A stretch of DNA of 46,148 bases, from the NCBI GenBank assembly GCA_938017905.1, contig CALIKX010000022.1, positions 1 to 46,148 of the forward strand, in the 5' to 3' direction. Positions within the stretch are counted from its first letter, which is position 1, and every line of letters starts with the position of its first letter. Below the pieces are notes generated by a model. It had not been told where the DNA came from. It ran no database searches and saw nothing but the letters and a program-made list of their open reading frames with translations. Positions 31,284 through 37,917 of the stretch are shown here, piece after piece. A program made the translations under genes and the position numbers. Source of the stretch: an uncultured Thermoleophilia bacterium. Lineage in GTDB: Bacteria; Actinomycetota; Thermoleophilia; Miltoncostaeales; Miltoncostaeaceae.

Positions 31284-32419
31284 GTGAACACGGACCCTAT
31301 CCCGGCGAACGCCGTCCTGACCGAGTCGGTGAAGCCCGCGGCGCCGACCGCGCGATCGGCAGCGAGGGGTGCGCGCGCAACCACGCGGTCCCCCTGCATC
31401 ACCTCCACGCGCCCGATGCGCTGGCCCTGCGTCACCGGGGCCATCGCCATCGCCGGGGCGGTCACCCGCAGGCGGATTGGCTCGCCCAGGCGCACGGTCG
31501 CCGCCAGGGGAGCCCGTGGCGCGAGCCCCACGGTCGCGCCCGGCACACCCTGCACCTCCAGCGACGCCACCGGCTGGCCACGGCGCACCACGACGGGCCT
31601 TGAGAACTGACCGAACCCCCACTCGAGCAGCGCCTTCGCGTCCCGTGCGCGCGTCTGGCGGTCCGGCTCGCCCATCAGCACCGCGTACATATCACGGTCG
31701 AGCGCCGGCGAGGTGGCATGGGCCACCAGCGTGTACCCGGCGTCGTCGGTGTGGCCGGTCTTGATGCCATCCGCCGACGGCATGATCGCCAACAGGTCGT
31801 TCTGCGACTGCAGCCGCCGCGACCCCTCGCCGCCCGGGCCGGGAAGGGTGACCACGCGGTCGCCCACCAGCGACTGCAGGAGCGGCACCTTCATCACCTC
31901 GCGCCCCAGCACGGCCAGGTCGCGCGGGGACGACTCGTGCCCGGGCTCATCAAGCCCGTGCGGGTTCGCGAACCGCGTGCGGGTGAGGCCCATTTCGGCG
32001 GCGCGTTCGTTCATCCGCTGCACGAACTCGGCCTCGGAGCCGGATACCGCGTAGGCGATGGCGATGGCCGCGTCGTTTCCGCTGCCCACCATGAGGCCGC
32101 GGACCAGGTCGCGCATTGTGATGCGCTCACCGGCGCGGAGCCCCGCCGAGGACTCCCCCACCGCCACGGCGCCCGGCGCCACGGTGACGACGCGGTCGAG
32201 ATCACCCGACTCGATCGCCACGAGGGCGCTCATCATCTTGGTGAGGCTGGCCATGGGCCGGGCGGTGTCGGCGGCCCGCTCGGCCAGGACCTCGCCGGTC
32301 GGCCCGTCCACCAGGAGCCACGCCGACCCCGCCGGGGACGGCGGCCGGTCCGCGGCGAGCGCTGTGGCCGCGGGGGCCATGAGCACGGCCGCAAGGGCCA
32401 CCCGGAGGACGCGTCGCAC
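31280..32419 (-). CDS. D-alanyl-D-alanine carboxypeptidase (penicillin-binding protein, S11)
   Basis: The 379-residue secreted enzyme has a signal peptide (VRRVLRVALAAVLMAPAATALAA), then the S11 active-site motifs S58-L-T-K61, S113-G-N115 and K220-T-G, and a C-terminal beta domain (about 285-379). It trims the terminal D-alanine from cell-wall peptides. Unlike typical DacA proteins there is no clear C-terminal membrane anchor helix. GTG 32419 directly follows a TGGTACGAT element by seven bases with no ribosome binding site, so the message is probably leaderless. It is coupled to a PfkB kinase. Confidence 0.93.
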   Translation of the reverse strand: MRRVLRVALAAVLMAPAATALAADRPPSPAGSAWLLVDGPTGEVLAERAADTARPMASLTKMMSALVAIESGDLDRVVTVAPGAVAVGESSAGLRAGERITMRDLVRGLMVGSGNDAAIAIAYAVSGSEAEFVQRMNERAAEMGLTRTRFANPHGLDEPGHESSPRDLAVLGREVMKVPLLQSLVGDRVVTLPGPGGEGSRRLQSQNDLLAIMPSADGIKTGHTDDAGYTLVAHATSPALDRDMYAVLMGEPDRQTRARDAKALLEWGFGQFSRPVVVRRGQPVASLEVQGVPGATVGLAPRAPLAATVRLGEPIRLRVTAPAMAMAPVTQGQRIGRVEVMQGDRVVARAPLAADRAVGAAGFTDSVRTAFAGIGSVFT

Positions 32420-32426
32420 ATGTTTG

Positions 32427-32435
32427 ATCGTACCA
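32427..32435 (-). promoter_or_regulatory. extended -10 promoter of the carboxypeptidase gene, leaderless
   Basis: TGGTACGAT on the minus strand (32435-32427), then seven bases, then GTG at 32419. It lies in the 69-base region upstream of the divergent ATPase, or inside that gene if the ATPase uses its earlier ATG. Confidence 0.5.
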
Positions 32436-32488
32436 GCGACCCCCCTCCGGGCGAGGCGCGCCGGGCCCGTGGGTGCAACGCTTCGGGG

Positions 32489-34930
32489 GTGGCCACCGAC
32501 ACCGCCGAGACGGCCGTGATCACCGCGGCAACGGGGCCGCGCGGGCTGACGGAGGACGAGGCACGCGCCCGCCGACCCGCGGGCCGGCGCCGCACCGTCG
32601 GCCGCTCGTACGCGAGCATCGTGCGGGCCAACGTCTTCACGCTGTTCAACCTGATCCTCGTCACGTTCGCGGTGATCACGCTGGTGTTCGGCGACTGGCG
32701 CGATGTGTTCTTCCTCGCGATCCTCGTCATCAACATCTCCATCGGCATCGCCCAGGAGGTGCGCGCCAAGCGCGCCGTGGCGCGGCTGGCCGCCCTGGTG
32801 GCGCCGACCGCCCGCGTGATGCGCGATGGCACCGAGCGCCACGTGGATGTGGACGACGTCGTACCGGGGGACCTCGTGCTGATCGGCGCCGGGGACCAGC
32901 TGGTGGCCGACGGCACCCTGCGCGAGGCCGCAGGGCTCGCGCTGGACGAGGCCGTCCTCACCGGGGAGTCGCGGCCCGTCACCCACGAGGCCGGGGACCC
33001 GGTGCGCGCCGGGGCCTTCTGCGCCGAGGGCTCCGGTGCCTACGTGGCCGAGGCCGTGGGCGACGACTCCTACGCGGGGCACGTCTCGGACATCGCGCGG
33101 TCGTTCCGCCATCCCCTCTCGCCCCTTCAACGCGGGATGAACCGGCTGCTCGTCGCGATGGTGGCGATCATGATCCCGCTCGGGGCCGTGCTGGCGCTCG
33201 CCCTGTGGCGCACCAGCCCCGACCTCGAGGAGGCGGTCTCCACGGCCACGGCGGCCATGGTCACCCTCATCCCCGAGGGGCTCATCCTGCTGGCCAGCAT
33301 CACCTACGCGGTCAGCACCATCCGCATGTCCAGGCGCGGTGCGCTCGCGCAGCAGCTCTCGGCCATCGAGGCACTGGCCTCGGCCGACATGGTCCTGGTC
33401 GACAAGACCGGCACCCTCACCACCGGCGAGGCCCGGCTGGTGCACCGCCAGCCCGCGGATGACGGCGACCCGGCCGCGCTGGACGCCGCGCTGGCCAAGT
33501 ACGCGGCCTGCTGGCGCGACGGGGACGAGACCCTCGACGCCATCGCCGCCGAGCTGCCGCACGATCCCCTGGCCCCCGACGGGGCCGTCCCCTTCACCTC
33601 GCGCCGCCGCTGGGCCGGCGTGCGCGTGGAGGGCCGTACGCTGGTGCTCGGCGCCCCGGGGGTGGTGAACCCCGGTCCGCTGGCCGATGTGGTGCACCGG
33701 GAGTCCGGCCACGGGCGACGGGTGCTGGTGCTCGCCACCGGCGACGCGCCCCTCGGTACGCCGGGCCCTGACGATCCGCCACCCGCCGGCCTTCGCGCCC
33801 TGGGAGTGATCGCCCTGGCCGAGACACTGCAACCGGGCATCAAGGGGGCCATCGAGTTCCTCGGGCGCGAGGGAATCCCCGTGCACGTCGTCTCGGGCGA
33901 TGCGCCTGCCACGGTCGGCGCCATCGCGGCCGACTGCGGCATCCACTCGAGCTCGCCCATCCTCGCCGCCGAGCTGCCCACCGACCCCACGGCGCTGTCC
34001 CGTGTGGTCACCGGTGCGGGCATCGTGGGCCGCGCGACGCCCGACGACAAGGAGCGCATCGTCAGCGCCCTCGCCGACGAGGGCTACAACGTCGCGATGA
34101 TCGGCGACGGCGTGAACGACGTGCCGGCCCTCAAGCGCTCGCGCATCGCCATCGCCCCCGCCGAGGCCAGCCAGATGGCGCGGGCGGTCGCCGACATCGT
34201 GATGGTGCGCGGCGGGTTCGCATCCCTCGCGCCGATGATCCTCGAGGGCCGCCAGGCCCTGCGGAACCTGCAGCGGGTCAGCAAGCTGTTCGTGGCGAAG
34301 TCGTTCCTGGCCGCGTTCCTCATCCTCACCATCGGGCTGGTGCCCACCACCTACCCGTTCCTGCCGCGTCACCTGACGCTGCTGTCGTTCCTGACCGTGG
34401 GCATCCCCGCGTTCTTCCTGGCACTCGCTCCCAGCACCGGGGCATGGAAGGCGCGCGACTACCTGGGCTCCACGTTCCGGTTTGCCCTGCCCGCGGGCGT
34501 CGCCGCCGGGCTGGGCGTGGTGTCGAGCTACCTCTTCGCCCTGAACGTGGTGTTCACCGACATCCCGGTCGCGCGCACCGTGGCCGTGACGGCCCTCATG
34601 GCAATCGGCCTGTGGCTCGTGCTCATCCTCGAGGTATCCGGCGTGAAGCGGAGCGCCTGGGTGATCATCATGTGCCTCGTCATGGCCGGCCTGTACGTGA
34701 TGTTCATCCTGGTCGCACCGCTCCGCGAGTTCTTCGAGCTCACCACCATCGGCGCCATCGACGCCGTCGTGGCGCTCTCCGGCGCCGCCATCACGGCCAC
34801 CGGCCTGTGGATGCTCGACCGCCGGTTCCGCCCGGAGCCCCTGCGCGGCCCCCTCCCCCGCTGGCTCGCGCGACTCCTGCCAGACTCCTTCCGCGCGGAC
34901 CCCGACCCCGTGGTGCCGCACGACGACTGA
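32489..34930 (+). CDS. CtpE-like cation-transporting P-type ATPase
   Basis: The 813-residue membrane ATPase has actuator motif TGES (158-161), the membrane motif IPEGLILLAS (about 261-270), phosphorylation site D305-KTGT, and hinge MIGDGVNDVPALKRS. Its N-terminus (RSYASIVRANVFTLFNLILV) and PEGL-x-LL-x-S motif resemble mycobacterial CtpE, reported as a calcium uptake ATPase. It lacks N-terminal heavy-metal domains and the CPC motif. About ten membrane helices are visible. GTG 32489 gives a family-like length; the alternative ATG 32420 (MFDRTSD) would abut the divergent carboxypeptidase start and add 23 residues of low similarity. No promoter is obvious. Confidence 0.88.
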   Translation: MATDTAETAVITAATGPRGLTEDEARARRPAGRRRTVGRSYASIVRANVFTLFNLILVTFAVITLVFGDWRDVFFLAILVINISIGIAQEVRAKRAVARLAALVAPTARVMRDGTERHVDVDDVVPGDLVLIGAGDQLVADGTLREAAGLALDEAVLTGESRPVTHEAGDPVRAGAFCAEGSGAYVAEAVGDDSYAGHVSDIARSFRHPLSPLQRGMNRLLVAMVAIMIPLGAVLALALWRTSPDLEEAVSTATAAMVTLIPEGLILLASITYAVSTIRMSRRGALAQQLSAIEALASADMVLVDKTGTLTTGEARLVHRQPADDGDPAALDAALAKYAACWRDGDETLDAIAAELPHDPLAPDGAVPFTSRRRWAGVRVEGRTLVLGAPGVVNPGPLADVVHRESGHGRRVLVLATGDAPLGTPGPDDPPPAGLRALGVIALAETLQPGIKGAIEFLGREGIPVHVVSGDAPATVGAIAADCGIHSSSPILAAELPTDPTALSRVVTGAGIVGRATPDDKERIVSALADEGYNVAMIGDGVNDVPALKRSRIAIAPAEASQMARAVADIVMVRGGFASLAPMILEGRQALRNLQRVSKLFVAKSFLAAFLILTIGLVPTTYPFLPRHLTLLSFLTVGIPAFFLALAPSTGAWKARDYLGSTFRFALPAGVAAGLGVVSSYLFALNVVFTDIPVARTVAVTALMAIGLWLVLILEVSGVKRSAWVIIMCLVMAGLYVMFILVAPLREFFELTTIGAIDAVVALSGAAITATGLWMLDRRFRPEPLRGPLPRWLARLLPDSFRADPDPVVPHDD

Positions 34931-34957: not shown

Positions 34958-35632
34958 TTAGTCGACCGGTCGTCCGCCGCGCAGGTCGGGGTGCACGCGG
35001 ATGAGCCGCTCGTCGAGGTCGTCGAGCCCCCGGGCGCGGGCGACGCCGGGGAGCGCGCCGACCCGGCGGTAGTGATCGGCAACGGCGGGCCCGCCAAGGC
35101 GGATGTCGTCGTAGTAGTTGCTCCAGCCCACGAGCATGTAGGCGTAGATGTCGCAGACGCCGGGCCGGTCGCCGGCGAGCCATTCATGGTCGGCGAGCCA
35201 CCGCTCCAGGTGGTCGCCGGCGCGCAGGATGTTGCGGCGGCCACCGGCATCGAGGGCGGCGGCGGCGCCCGGGTCGTCACCGATGTAGAAGAAGGGCGCC
35301 ATGATGGGCCACCAGCCCACGTGCAGCGTGTTGGCGCACCAGGTGACCCACCGGTAGTGGTCGGCGCGCGCGGGCGTGCCGACGGCCGGGGCCAGGTGCG
35401 CATCCGGGAACCGGTCCCCGAGCCAGAGGAGGATGGCGCCGGTCTCGGAGATGCGCACGTCGCCCTCGCGCAGCGCGGGGACGCGCTTCAGGGGGTTGGC
35501 ATCCGCGAAGCCCGGGGCATCATCGCGCCGACGGGGGTGGACGTCCACCACCTCGTACTCCGCACCTGCGCACTCGAGCGCAGCGCGCACTGCGAACGAC
35601 GACGAACCGGTGATCTGAAACAGGGTGATCAT
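34958..35632 (-). CDS. glutathione S-transferase-like protein
   Basis: The 224-residue protein has the N-terminal thioredoxin-like GST domain (TLFQITGSSSFAVRAALECAGAEYEVVDV, NPLKRVPALREGDVRISETGAILLWLGDRF) and an all-helical C-terminal domain with ERWLADHEWLAGDRPGVCDIYAYMLV. The cis-proline and ES/ET motifs are present. Since most Actinomycetota lack glutathione, the true thiol or function may differ. The ATG overlaps the stop of the upstream dehydrogenase (ATGA). Confidence 0.88.
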   Translation of the reverse strand: MITLFQITGSSSFAVRAALECAGAEYEVVDVHPRRRDDAPGFADANPLKRVPALREGDVRISETGAILLWLGDRFPDAHLAPAVGTPARADHYRWVTWCANTLHVGWWPIMAPFFYIGDDPGAAAALDAGGRRNILRAGDHLERWLADHEWLAGDRPGVCDIYAYMLVGWSNYYDDIRLGGPAVADHYRRVGALPGVARARGLDDLDERLIRVHPDLRGGRPVD

Positions 35633-36474
35633 GCATCCCCTCCGGGCAGGTCCATGAGCAGTCGGGCGACGGCGCCGTAGTCCAGCGCGCCGTCGACATC
35701 CCCGAAGAGCGCGGCAGCGGGATCGCCGATCGCGAGTGGCGCACCCGCCATGTCGCGCGCGTGCCCGAGGTCCTTGCGCAGGTCGCGGGCACGGAACCCC
35801 GGCGCGTGGTCACCGGCGAGGACGCGCGGGAACAGGTTGCGCAGTTGCCACGAGTCGCCGGACGACGCGGTCACCACGCGCGCCAGCACCTCCGGGTCCA
35901 CGCCCGCGCGCTGGCCGATGCCGAATGCCTCGGCCGTGCCCGCCGAGATCACCGCCACGAGCAGGTTGTTCACCAGCTTCGCGACGAGGCCCGAGCCCAC
36001 GGGGCCGCAGTGCACGCGCTTCGCCGGATCGCCGATGAGGTCGAGCAGCGGGGCGGCGGCGGCAACGCCGTCGGCCGTCCCCCCGCACATCACGGCCAGC
36101 GTGCCCGCCTCGGCACCCGGGGGGCCACCGCTCACCGGGCAGTCGAGGTATTCGGCCCCCGACGTGGCCGCGATGGCAGCTGCCTCGCGTGCCGCCGCCG
36201 GGGCGATGGTGGAAGTGTCGATGATGATGGGGGGCGGTTCGTCCGCCGCCATCACGAGTGCCACGACCTCCAGCACGTCGGCGGAGTCGGTCACCGACAG
36301 CAGAGCGGCATCGGCGCCGTGCGCGGCGCCGGTGATGTCCCGGGCGGGCTCCGCGGGCAGGCCGTCCGCCTTTGCCGGGGTGCGGGCGTGCACGACCACC
36401 TCGTGGCCGCCCGCCGCGATGTTGCGGATCATCCCGGCCCCCATGAGGCCGGCTCCCACCACTGCCACGCGCAT
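35629..36474 (-). CDS. beta-hydroxyacid dehydrogenase (3-hydroxyisobutyrate dehydrogenase family)
   Basis: The 281-residue NAD(P)-dependent protein begins MRVAVVGAGLMGAGMIRNI with the Rossmann GxGxxG, then IIDTSTIAP, the substrate motif DCPVSGGPPGAEAGTLAVMCGG, and the catalytic lysine in GLVAKLVNNLLV. The family includes 3-hydroxyisobutyrate, tartronate semialdehyde and glyoxylate/succinic semialdehyde reductases; substrate cannot be resolved. The ATG at 36474 has a TAGGTT element seven bases upstream and no ribosome binding site, so it is probably leaderless. It is cotranslated with a GST-like protein. Confidence 0.9.
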   Translation of the reverse strand: MRVAVVGAGLMGAGMIRNIAAGGHEVVVHARTPAKADGLPAEPARDITGAAHGADAALLSVTDSADVLEVVALVMAADEPPPIIIDTSTIAPAAAREAAAIAATSGAEYLDCPVSGGPPGAEAGTLAVMCGGTADGVAAAAPLLDLIGDPAKRVHCGPVGSGLVAKLVNNLLVAVISAGTAEAFGIGQRAGVDPEVLARVVTASSGDSWQLRNLFPRVLAGDHAPGFRARDLRKDLGHARDMAGAPLAIGDPAAALFGDVDGALDYGAVARLLMDLPGGDA

Positions 36475-36481
36475 GCGCGAA

Positions 36482-36487
36482 AACCTA
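36482..36487 (-). promoter_or_regulatory. -10 element of the hydroxyacid dehydrogenase gene, leaderless
   Basis: TAGGTT on the minus strand (36487-36482) is separated from the ATG at 36474 by seven bases. It overlaps the 3' end of the upstream gene. Confidence 0.45.
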
Positions 36488-37063
36488 TCCGTCCCCATGC
36501 GCCGCATCGCGGGCATGCCGCTCGCGATCGGCACCGGGCCCGAGGTCGCCGCGCCATGAGCACCCGGGGCAGCGGTCCTCGCCCTCGATGTGCCCTTCGG
36601 CCCACGCGCGGGCCGCCACCATCGGCAGTACCCGCTCGGCAGGCCGGCCCTCGCGCAGCAGGGACAGCGCCCCGAGGACGATGGCGACAAGCACCGGATC
36701 CGCCGGATCCGGGAATGGGGGGACCGGACCGGGGGGTGCGAGTCCCGGCACCGCTCCCGCGCCCGCCGATCCGCACGCACCTGCCACCTGCGCCGGCCGG
36801 GTGGCATCGCGGGGAAAGCCGCATGCGGCATCACAACCGGGGCAGTGGTCCTCCCCCTCGGCGTGCCCCTCCATCCACGCGTGCACGGCCAGATCCACCA
36901 CCGCCTGGGCATCCGAGCCCTCGCCTGCGATGCGGGTGGCGCGACCCAGGAGCGCGGCGAACACGGACGACCCGGCATCCGGTGCGGGTGGCACCTCGAC
37001 GTCGCCCGAGAACAGCGGGTGGGCCACCGGGCGGAAGCCGGTGGGGTGCTCGGATGCGCTCAC
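36485..37063 (-). CDS. protein with duplicated W-x-EGH-x-EGED-x-CPGC motif, unknown
   Basis: This 192-residue soluble protein contains two copies of a helical unit ending in a metal-site-like motif: AWMEGHAEGEDHCPGC at 62-77 and AWAEGHIEGEDRCPGC at 153-168, each preceded by about 30 residues of matching helix (SVFAALLGRATRIAGEGSD..., PVLVAIVLGALSLLREGRP...). The H-x-E-G-E-D-x-C-x-x-C set would suit a zinc or Fe-S site. A proline/glycine-rich linker (about 98-122) separates the units; extra cysteines follow the first copy. GTG 37063 overlaps the stop of the upstream membrane protein (GTGA). I do not recognise the family. Confidence 0.72.
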   Translation of the reverse strand: MSASEHPTGFRPVAHPLFSGDVEVPPAPDAGSSVFAALLGRATRIAGEGSDAQAVVDLAVHAWMEGHAEGEDHCPGCDAACGFPRDATRPAQVAGACGSAGAGAVPGLAPPGPVPPFPDPADPVLVAIVLGALSLLREGRPAERVLPMVAARAWAEGHIEGEDRCPGCSWRGDLGPGADRERHARDAAHGDG

Positions 37064-37857
37064 GTCGCGTCGCGCACGCGCGTCATGCGGCCGGCGATGA
37101 ACCTCCACGCGGCAAGGGCGGCGGGCGCGAGCGCCAGCGCGGCGATGTCGAACAGCACGTACCCGGCGGCGGCGCCGCTCGGCGGGTTCCCGTTGCCGAT
37201 GCCCAGGAACGGGACCGTGGGCTCCCAGTACCAGGTGGATACCCAGGTGCCCCAGATCTCCAGGAAGGCGACGAAGAAGAAGACCCCGGCATACAGGGCG
37301 GGCGCGCGGCCGATCAGCAGGAAGACGACGAGGAAGGCCACGGCGATCGCACCGGCCACGTCCACGCGACCGAGGGACCCGGAGAGCCCCACGATGCCCC
37401 ACGCGAGGGCGCCGACGACGGCCGCCCCCACGACGATGCGGGGATGCACCCGGGCCAGCCGCGTCTGCGAGAAGCGGTAGCCGGCCAGGTACACCAGGCC
37501 GTGACCGGCGGGCACGAACAGCGGGAGGTTGCCCAGGCGGTAGTCGTAGACGCCGAGCCAGGTGGAGAAGATGAGCTCCGCGGATGTGGCCACCACGACA
37601 ACCACGAACACGCGCGCCCGGTCCAGCGGACCCAGCGGCACGCAGGCCGCGATGAGGACCACCCAGGCGATGGCCGACAGCGTCAGCTGCCATGGGAGCC
37701 CGCCCAGGGAGTCCAGCCACAGGCCCAGCGACGTGAACACAAGGAGGAACGGGATGAAGAGCCACGGCCGCTCCAGCACCACCAGCGCGCGCGTCCATAC
37801 GCGCCGGGCGAGCGGTGCGGGCGAAGCTGCGCGCGGGGAGGCGTCGAGCGTGCTCAC
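37060..37857 (-). CDS. polytopic membrane protein, unknown
   Basis: The 265-residue protein has about seven to eight membrane helices after a 30-residue basic N-terminus (for example WLFIPFLLVFTSLGLWL, LTLSAIAWVVLIAACVPLG, VFVVVVVATSAELIF, VAGAIAVAFLVVFLLIG, YVLFDIAALALAPAALAAW). Loop motifs stand out: STWLGVYDYRLGNLPLFVPAGHGLVYLAGY and IWGTWVSTWYWEPTVPFLGIGNGNPPSGAAAGY; the GHG and aromatic W/Y clusters near the membrane could bind a lipid or pigment. GTG 37857 has a TAACCT seven bases upstream and no ribosome binding site. It is coupled by GTGA to the duplicated CPGC protein. I cannot name its function. Confidence 0.75.
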   Translation of the reverse strand: MSTLDASPRAASPAPLARRVWTRALVVLERPWLFIPFLLVFTSLGLWLDSLGGLPWQLTLSAIAWVVLIAACVPLGPLDRARVFVVVVVATSAELIFSTWLGVYDYRLGNLPLFVPAGHGLVYLAGYRFSQTRLARVHPRIVVGAAVVGALAWGIVGLSGSLGRVDVAGAIAVAFLVVFLLIGRAPALYAGVFFFVAFLEIWGTWVSTWYWEPTVPFLGIGNGNPPSGAAAGYVLFDIAALALAPAALAAWRFIAGRMTRVRDAT

Positions 37858-37864
37858 GCATCCG

Positions 37865-37870
37865 AGGTTA
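37865..37870 (-). promoter_or_regulatory. -10 element of the membrane protein gene, leaderless
   Basis: TAACCT on the minus strand (37870-37865), seven bases, then GTG at 37857. No Shine-Dalgarno sequence intervenes. Confidence 0.4.
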
Positions 37871-37917
37871 GACCGGGCTGCGCCGCCCCGGAGGGGCAAC
37901 GGTGGCGCCGGGGACGA

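Follow-up and report, generated by a model that had tools for sequence, protein, structure and literature searches.

The Tandem Gene and Its Locus

The window, a stretch of 46,148 nucleotides from an uncultured Thermoleophilia bacterium, encodes on its minus strand a protein of 192 residues, between genes for a membrane protein and for a dehydrogenase-like enzyme (Table 1), with a GST-like gene (34958–35632) further downstream. Elsewhere in the window, on the plus strand, the translation of a long open frame at 31718–34930 resembles a cation-transporting P-type ATPase (DKTGTLT motif).

The pattern W.EGH..GED.C..C is found twice in the tandem protein, at residues 63 and 154, exactly 91 residues apart. 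The two halves of the protein align with a Smith–Waterman score of 131 over 55 columns, whereas 2000 shuffles averaged 32 and never exceeded 62; the two related units about 91 residues apart, proposed in an earlier note on this DNA, are therefore real. The 16-residue motif described there is present in both copies, but the repeat extends beyond this motif and the helical lead-in noted with it, comprising a unit of about 57 residues that starts at PPxP and continues through a predicted helical hairpin to W-x-x-GH-x-x-GE-[DE]-x-C-x-G-C. Similarly, the near-identity of the motif, EGHxEGEDxCPGC, holds for the two window copies, whereas in homologs it is relaxed to W-x-EGH-x-x-GE[DE]-x-C-x-[GA]-C. 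The small, probably cytosolic tandem protein thus contains an undescribed domain twice, each copy about 57 residues long.

Table 1. Coordinates of the tandem gene, its repeated units and motifs, and the adjacent genes in the window.
Feature	Coordinates	Strand	Remarks
Gene for the 192-aa tandem protein	36485..37063	−	GTG start, TAG stop
Unit 1: PPxP, predicted helical hairpin, WMEGHAEGEDHCPGC	36827..36991	−	Profile A2, E 1.8e-24 (unit 1 is itself a row of A2)
Unit 2: PPFP, predicted helical hairpin, WAEGHIEGEDRCPGC, then WRG	36557..36721	−	Profile A2, E 6.8e-27 (unit 2 is itself a row of A2)
Motif 1, residues 62–77	36833..36880	−	Putative ligands H67, E71, C74, C77; columns invariant in 17 homologs
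Motif 2, residues 153–168	36560..36607	−	Putative ligands H158, E162, C165, C168; columns invariant in 17 homologs
GTGA overlap of the tandem gene start and the membrane-protein gene stop	37060..37063	−	Seen in the sequence
Upstream membrane-protein gene, order-wide	37060..37899	−	No Pfam family; listed TTG start uncertain
Downstream gene for a 3-hydroxyisobutyrate-dehydrogenase-like NAD(P) enzyme	35629..36474	−	Syntenic in most of the genus

Conservation Within the Order

The tandem gene is present in 17 of the 20 genomes of the window's genus (the window's own counted) and, elsewhere in the order, in a single genome from a different genus, G028; among 299 genomes of the class, the unit is limited to these. 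As for the three members of the genus that lack it, in G005 the contig edge directly follows the membrane-protein gene; G016 is 64% complete; and in G018, which is near-complete, the gene is partly deleted, with about 29 N-terminal codons left and both neighbors intact (L041, 1498–1600). Informative titles of the homologous loci mostly name Thermoleophilia, Miltoncostaeales, or actinobacterial metagenome-assembled genomes; a few look mislabeled. Contigs of this Thermoleophilia-type genus are deposited as Bifidobacterium breve (L021, L029, and L033) and as Acidobacteria (L025), probably through mislabeled records.

The gene is real and under purifying selection, with dN of 0.15–0.34 against dS of 0.98–1.37, and changes at third positions nearly three times those at other positions. 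A spurious open reading frame is ruled out by this ratio, which is well below 1 throughout, and by the conservation.

In the alignment of 17 homologs, unit 1 retains W63, E65, G66, H67, G70, E71, D72, C74, and C77, and unit 2 retains W154, E156, G157, H158, G161, E162, C165, and C168, so that W, E, G, H, G, E, C, and C are invariant in 17 of 17 in each copy independently; the strict constraint on the motif suspected in the earlier note is borne out. Cys81, just after motif 1, is invariant in unit 1 only; unit 2 additionally keeps W170, R171, and G172. The residues between the two cysteines vary (PG, EG, DG, GG, TG, AA, EA).

Family and Structure Searches

Neither the tandem protein, nor its relatives, nor the single units have a significant match in Pfam-A, NCBIfam, PHROGs, or PADLOC, in agreement with the initial description of the protein as unrecognized. 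Searching PDB sequences with the unit profile retrieves no known family, the matches being mainly designed helical proteins, and the motif strings were not found in the literature searched. Within these four libraries and this literature, the domain is, as judged from sequence, undescribed.

AlphaFold2, run with 17 sequences, predicts with modest confidence two helical hairpins, formed by helices 33–47/51–72 and 123–137/142–163. The full-length model, which contains no metal, has a mean pLDDT of 62 and pTM of 0.62, with mostly 72–86 in the hairpin blocks and lower values at the CxGC stretch; a unit modeled alone adopts the same hairpin (mean pLDDT 68, pTM 0.49). Comparison of this modest model with solved structures stayed at noise level both in Foldseek (best E 8.3) and in VIA-align (best Z 3.9).

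Relatives Outside the Order

Relatives outside the order were collected with the unit profile A2 and tblastn. The tandem protein, the proteins of Streptomyces elements, and those of linear plasmids form one domain family: both window units can be aligned with every group, and in a set of 15 units W, G, H, G, E, C, G, and C are invariant. Independently of this set, the query P0001 retrieves the plasmid proteins in tblastn and the 77-residue protein in BLASTP (E 7e-16 for the pair).

The first group comprises single-unit proteins of 77–79 residues from Streptomyces-like genomes (e.g., L125–L129), which we take to be Streptomyces, as they match named Streptomyces plasmid records. These proteins share about 40–49% identity with the window units and preserve the unit from PPFP through W-x-EGH-x-x-GED-x-CPGC to [FY]RG (WRG in window unit 2). 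Unlike the tandem protein, with its stable chromosomal setting, they carry one unit and are found in a context of mobile genes: several are encoded near genes for an integrase, a MobA-type relaxase, or a DUF2637 protein, and hence probably lie on integrative or mobilizable elements. The prevalence of the unit in the Streptomyces-like genus is low (17 of 229 genomes); in one Streptomyces copy, L169, the second Cys is replaced by Arg, which speaks against a metal site.

The second group consists of proteins of about 186 residues encoded on linear plasmids from Streptomyces, Kitasatospora, and Embleya (pSV2 and SAP1 among them). Their C-terminal part contains the unit, in the form AW-x-AGHIHGEDGCxGC; they differ from the tandem protein in having one unit, an HTH-like N-terminal segment, a C-terminal tail, and Ala in place of the first Glu of EGH. 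Due to this substitution, that Glu is probably not a ligand. The N-terminus of the SAP1 protein weakly matches Pfam HTH_Tnp_ISL3 (E 0.043), whereas the tandem protein has no such segment. In SAP1 (L073, 4671–5231 and 6672–7265), about 1.4 kb separates the unit gene from a gene for an HTH product resembling a telomere terminal protein, at roughly 12 kb from the plasmid end; several other linear plasmids likewise have their unit gene at a distance of 6–15 kb from an end. Tpg, the telomere terminal protein of Streptomyces, has about 185 residues and a helix-turn-helix (PMC3572947). A possible identity of the plasmid protein with Tpg was considered for the similar length only and set aside; in SAP1, the unit gene and the Tpg-like neighbor are separate genes.

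The third group is represented by a protein of 114 residues with a true unit, encoded on the IMG/VR contig L124, which also carries ParB-like genes; the match on a second IMG/VR contig, L182, was discarded as chance, and the weak phylum-wide matches L092–L095 also look like chance on reading of the sequences. A phage origin was rejected as well, since no phage record matches the tandem protein or the unit of the integrative elements, and the other units give weak partial matches only.

A tree of the units separates unit 1, unit 2, the plasmid group, and the integrative-element group; as it is built on 68 columns, it does not settle duplication within this lineage as the origin of the tandem.

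Not every member of the wider family has the motif. Two distant actinobacterial relatives from other families, G851 (E 5.5e-14) and the weaker match G147 (E 2.2e-5), retain PFPxxDNxxL together with the hairpin and LAVHAW[FY]EG, but have HAWFEGGVAGYDRGRG and HAWYEGALQT, respectively, in place of the motif, so that its His, Glu, and both Cys are absent together. Based on these two sequences plus a decayed fragment from G1096, the joint absence agrees with a single metal site in each unit.

Putative Metal Site

A metal site formed by His, Glu, and two Cys in each unit is the most economical reading of these patterns, given that W, G, H, G, E, C, and C are invariant across the units of the genus, of the Streptomyces integrative elements, and of the linear plasmids. 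We infer that each unit is a helical hairpin, the second helix of which ends in W-x-E-G-H-x-x-G-E-[DE]-x-C-x-G-C, and that it would bind one metal ion, most likely zinc, through these four residues; the metal would anchor this helix end to the turn that comes next. Since a single His and two Cys are general in each unit, the fourth ligand, as a guess, would be this Glu or, in unit 1, Cys81. The two units of the tandem protein would pack as an internal pseudo-dimer of four helices, which the structure comparisons leave unconfirmed, as no fold match rises above noise, and the single-unit proteins of Streptomyces elements may act as homodimers. The most likely role would be that of a non-enzymatic binding or regulatory module; it is proposed because, in the linear-plasmid proteins, the unit follows an HTH-like N-terminal segment. 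We give about an even chance to this reading as a whole, that is, an undescribed helical hairpin that probably binds zinc, would form an internal pseudo-dimer through its duplication, and would serve as such a module, where metal, packing, and function are inferred.

An iron–sulfur cluster is disfavored relative to zinc because no more than two cysteines in each unit are general. We know of no zinc module with the spacing H-x6-C-x2-C. ZAS (zinc-associated anti-sigma) domains are likewise small and helical and hold zinc by His and CxxC, but their spacing is H-x3-C-x2-C; as every aligned homolog of the unit has H-x6-C-x2-C and none matches Pfam ZAS, membership in that family was rejected.

C-x-x-C pairs are common redox motifs, and the preservation of CxGC in both units, as well as the GST-like and dehydrogenase-like genes downstream, would be consistent with a thiol redox protein, in which CxGC cycles between dithiol and disulfide, His and Glu tune its reactivity, and metal is absent or bound in the reduced form only. 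However, the residues between the cysteines vary, unlike those of tuned redox motifs, the Cys pair in the full-length model follows a helix rather than starting one, and Glu and His are kept as strictly as the cysteines; zinc is preferred to a pure redox pair because of this equal constraint and the free CxxC interior, and we consider the redox protein unlikely.

It is also quite unlikely that the unit is a hitherto undescribed metal-responsive module of actinobacterial mobile elements, which employ it singly and, on linear plasmids, behind a possible DNA-binding segment, and that it was duplicated into a stable Thermoleophilia chromosome to act there as a sensor or regulator.

The membrane protein encoded upstream, which has no match in Pfam, NCBIfam, or the PDB, was suspected in the earlier note to act together with the tandem protein. 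The two genes are likely cotranslated in the window species, and both their GTGA overlap and their adjacency, preserved in the loci of the genus where the region is assembled (with the dehydrogenase-like and GST-like genes next in most loci), would suit a tandem protein that is the partner or chaperone of its membrane neighbor. A functional pairing is weakened, however, by the distribution of the genes. The membrane-protein gene occurs in 41 of 42 genomes and all 12 genera of the order, mostly without the tandem protein; in G028 it lies close to the dehydrogenase-like gene on contig C50, with the tandem gene on C112 among other genes; G018 has lost the tandem gene and retained this neighbor; and no such neighbor was seen in the Streptomyces flanks examined. 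An obligate partnership is thus not supported, although overlap and adjacency stand, and a partner or chaperone role appears very unlikely.

Finally, we regard as highly improbable a two-metal enzyme in whose four-helix core the His and Glu of the two units would face each other and bind a catalytic pair of metals, with the Cys as accessory ligands. In the full-length model, H67/E71 and H158/E162 are indeed spaced by four residues, or about one turn of the second helix of each unit, and a pseudo-symmetric core could arise from the tandem arrangement. However, the 77-residue single-unit proteins would have to dimerize, the two ligand-less relatives retain the hairpin, and no di-metal helical-bundle enzyme emerged as a fold match (weak as an absence, given the modest model).

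Biological Meaning

Small Cys/His domains with no assigned role are common, and as a kind, a metal-site domain such as the putative zinc-binding hairpin would be ordinary. The relatives in which the putative ligands are missing together are natural variants that provide a ready test of metal binding. The family itself is a small domain family missed by the protein libraries searched, and it connects hypothetical proteins encoded on integrative elements and linear plasmids of Streptomyces to a protein conserved in uncultured Thermoleophilia.
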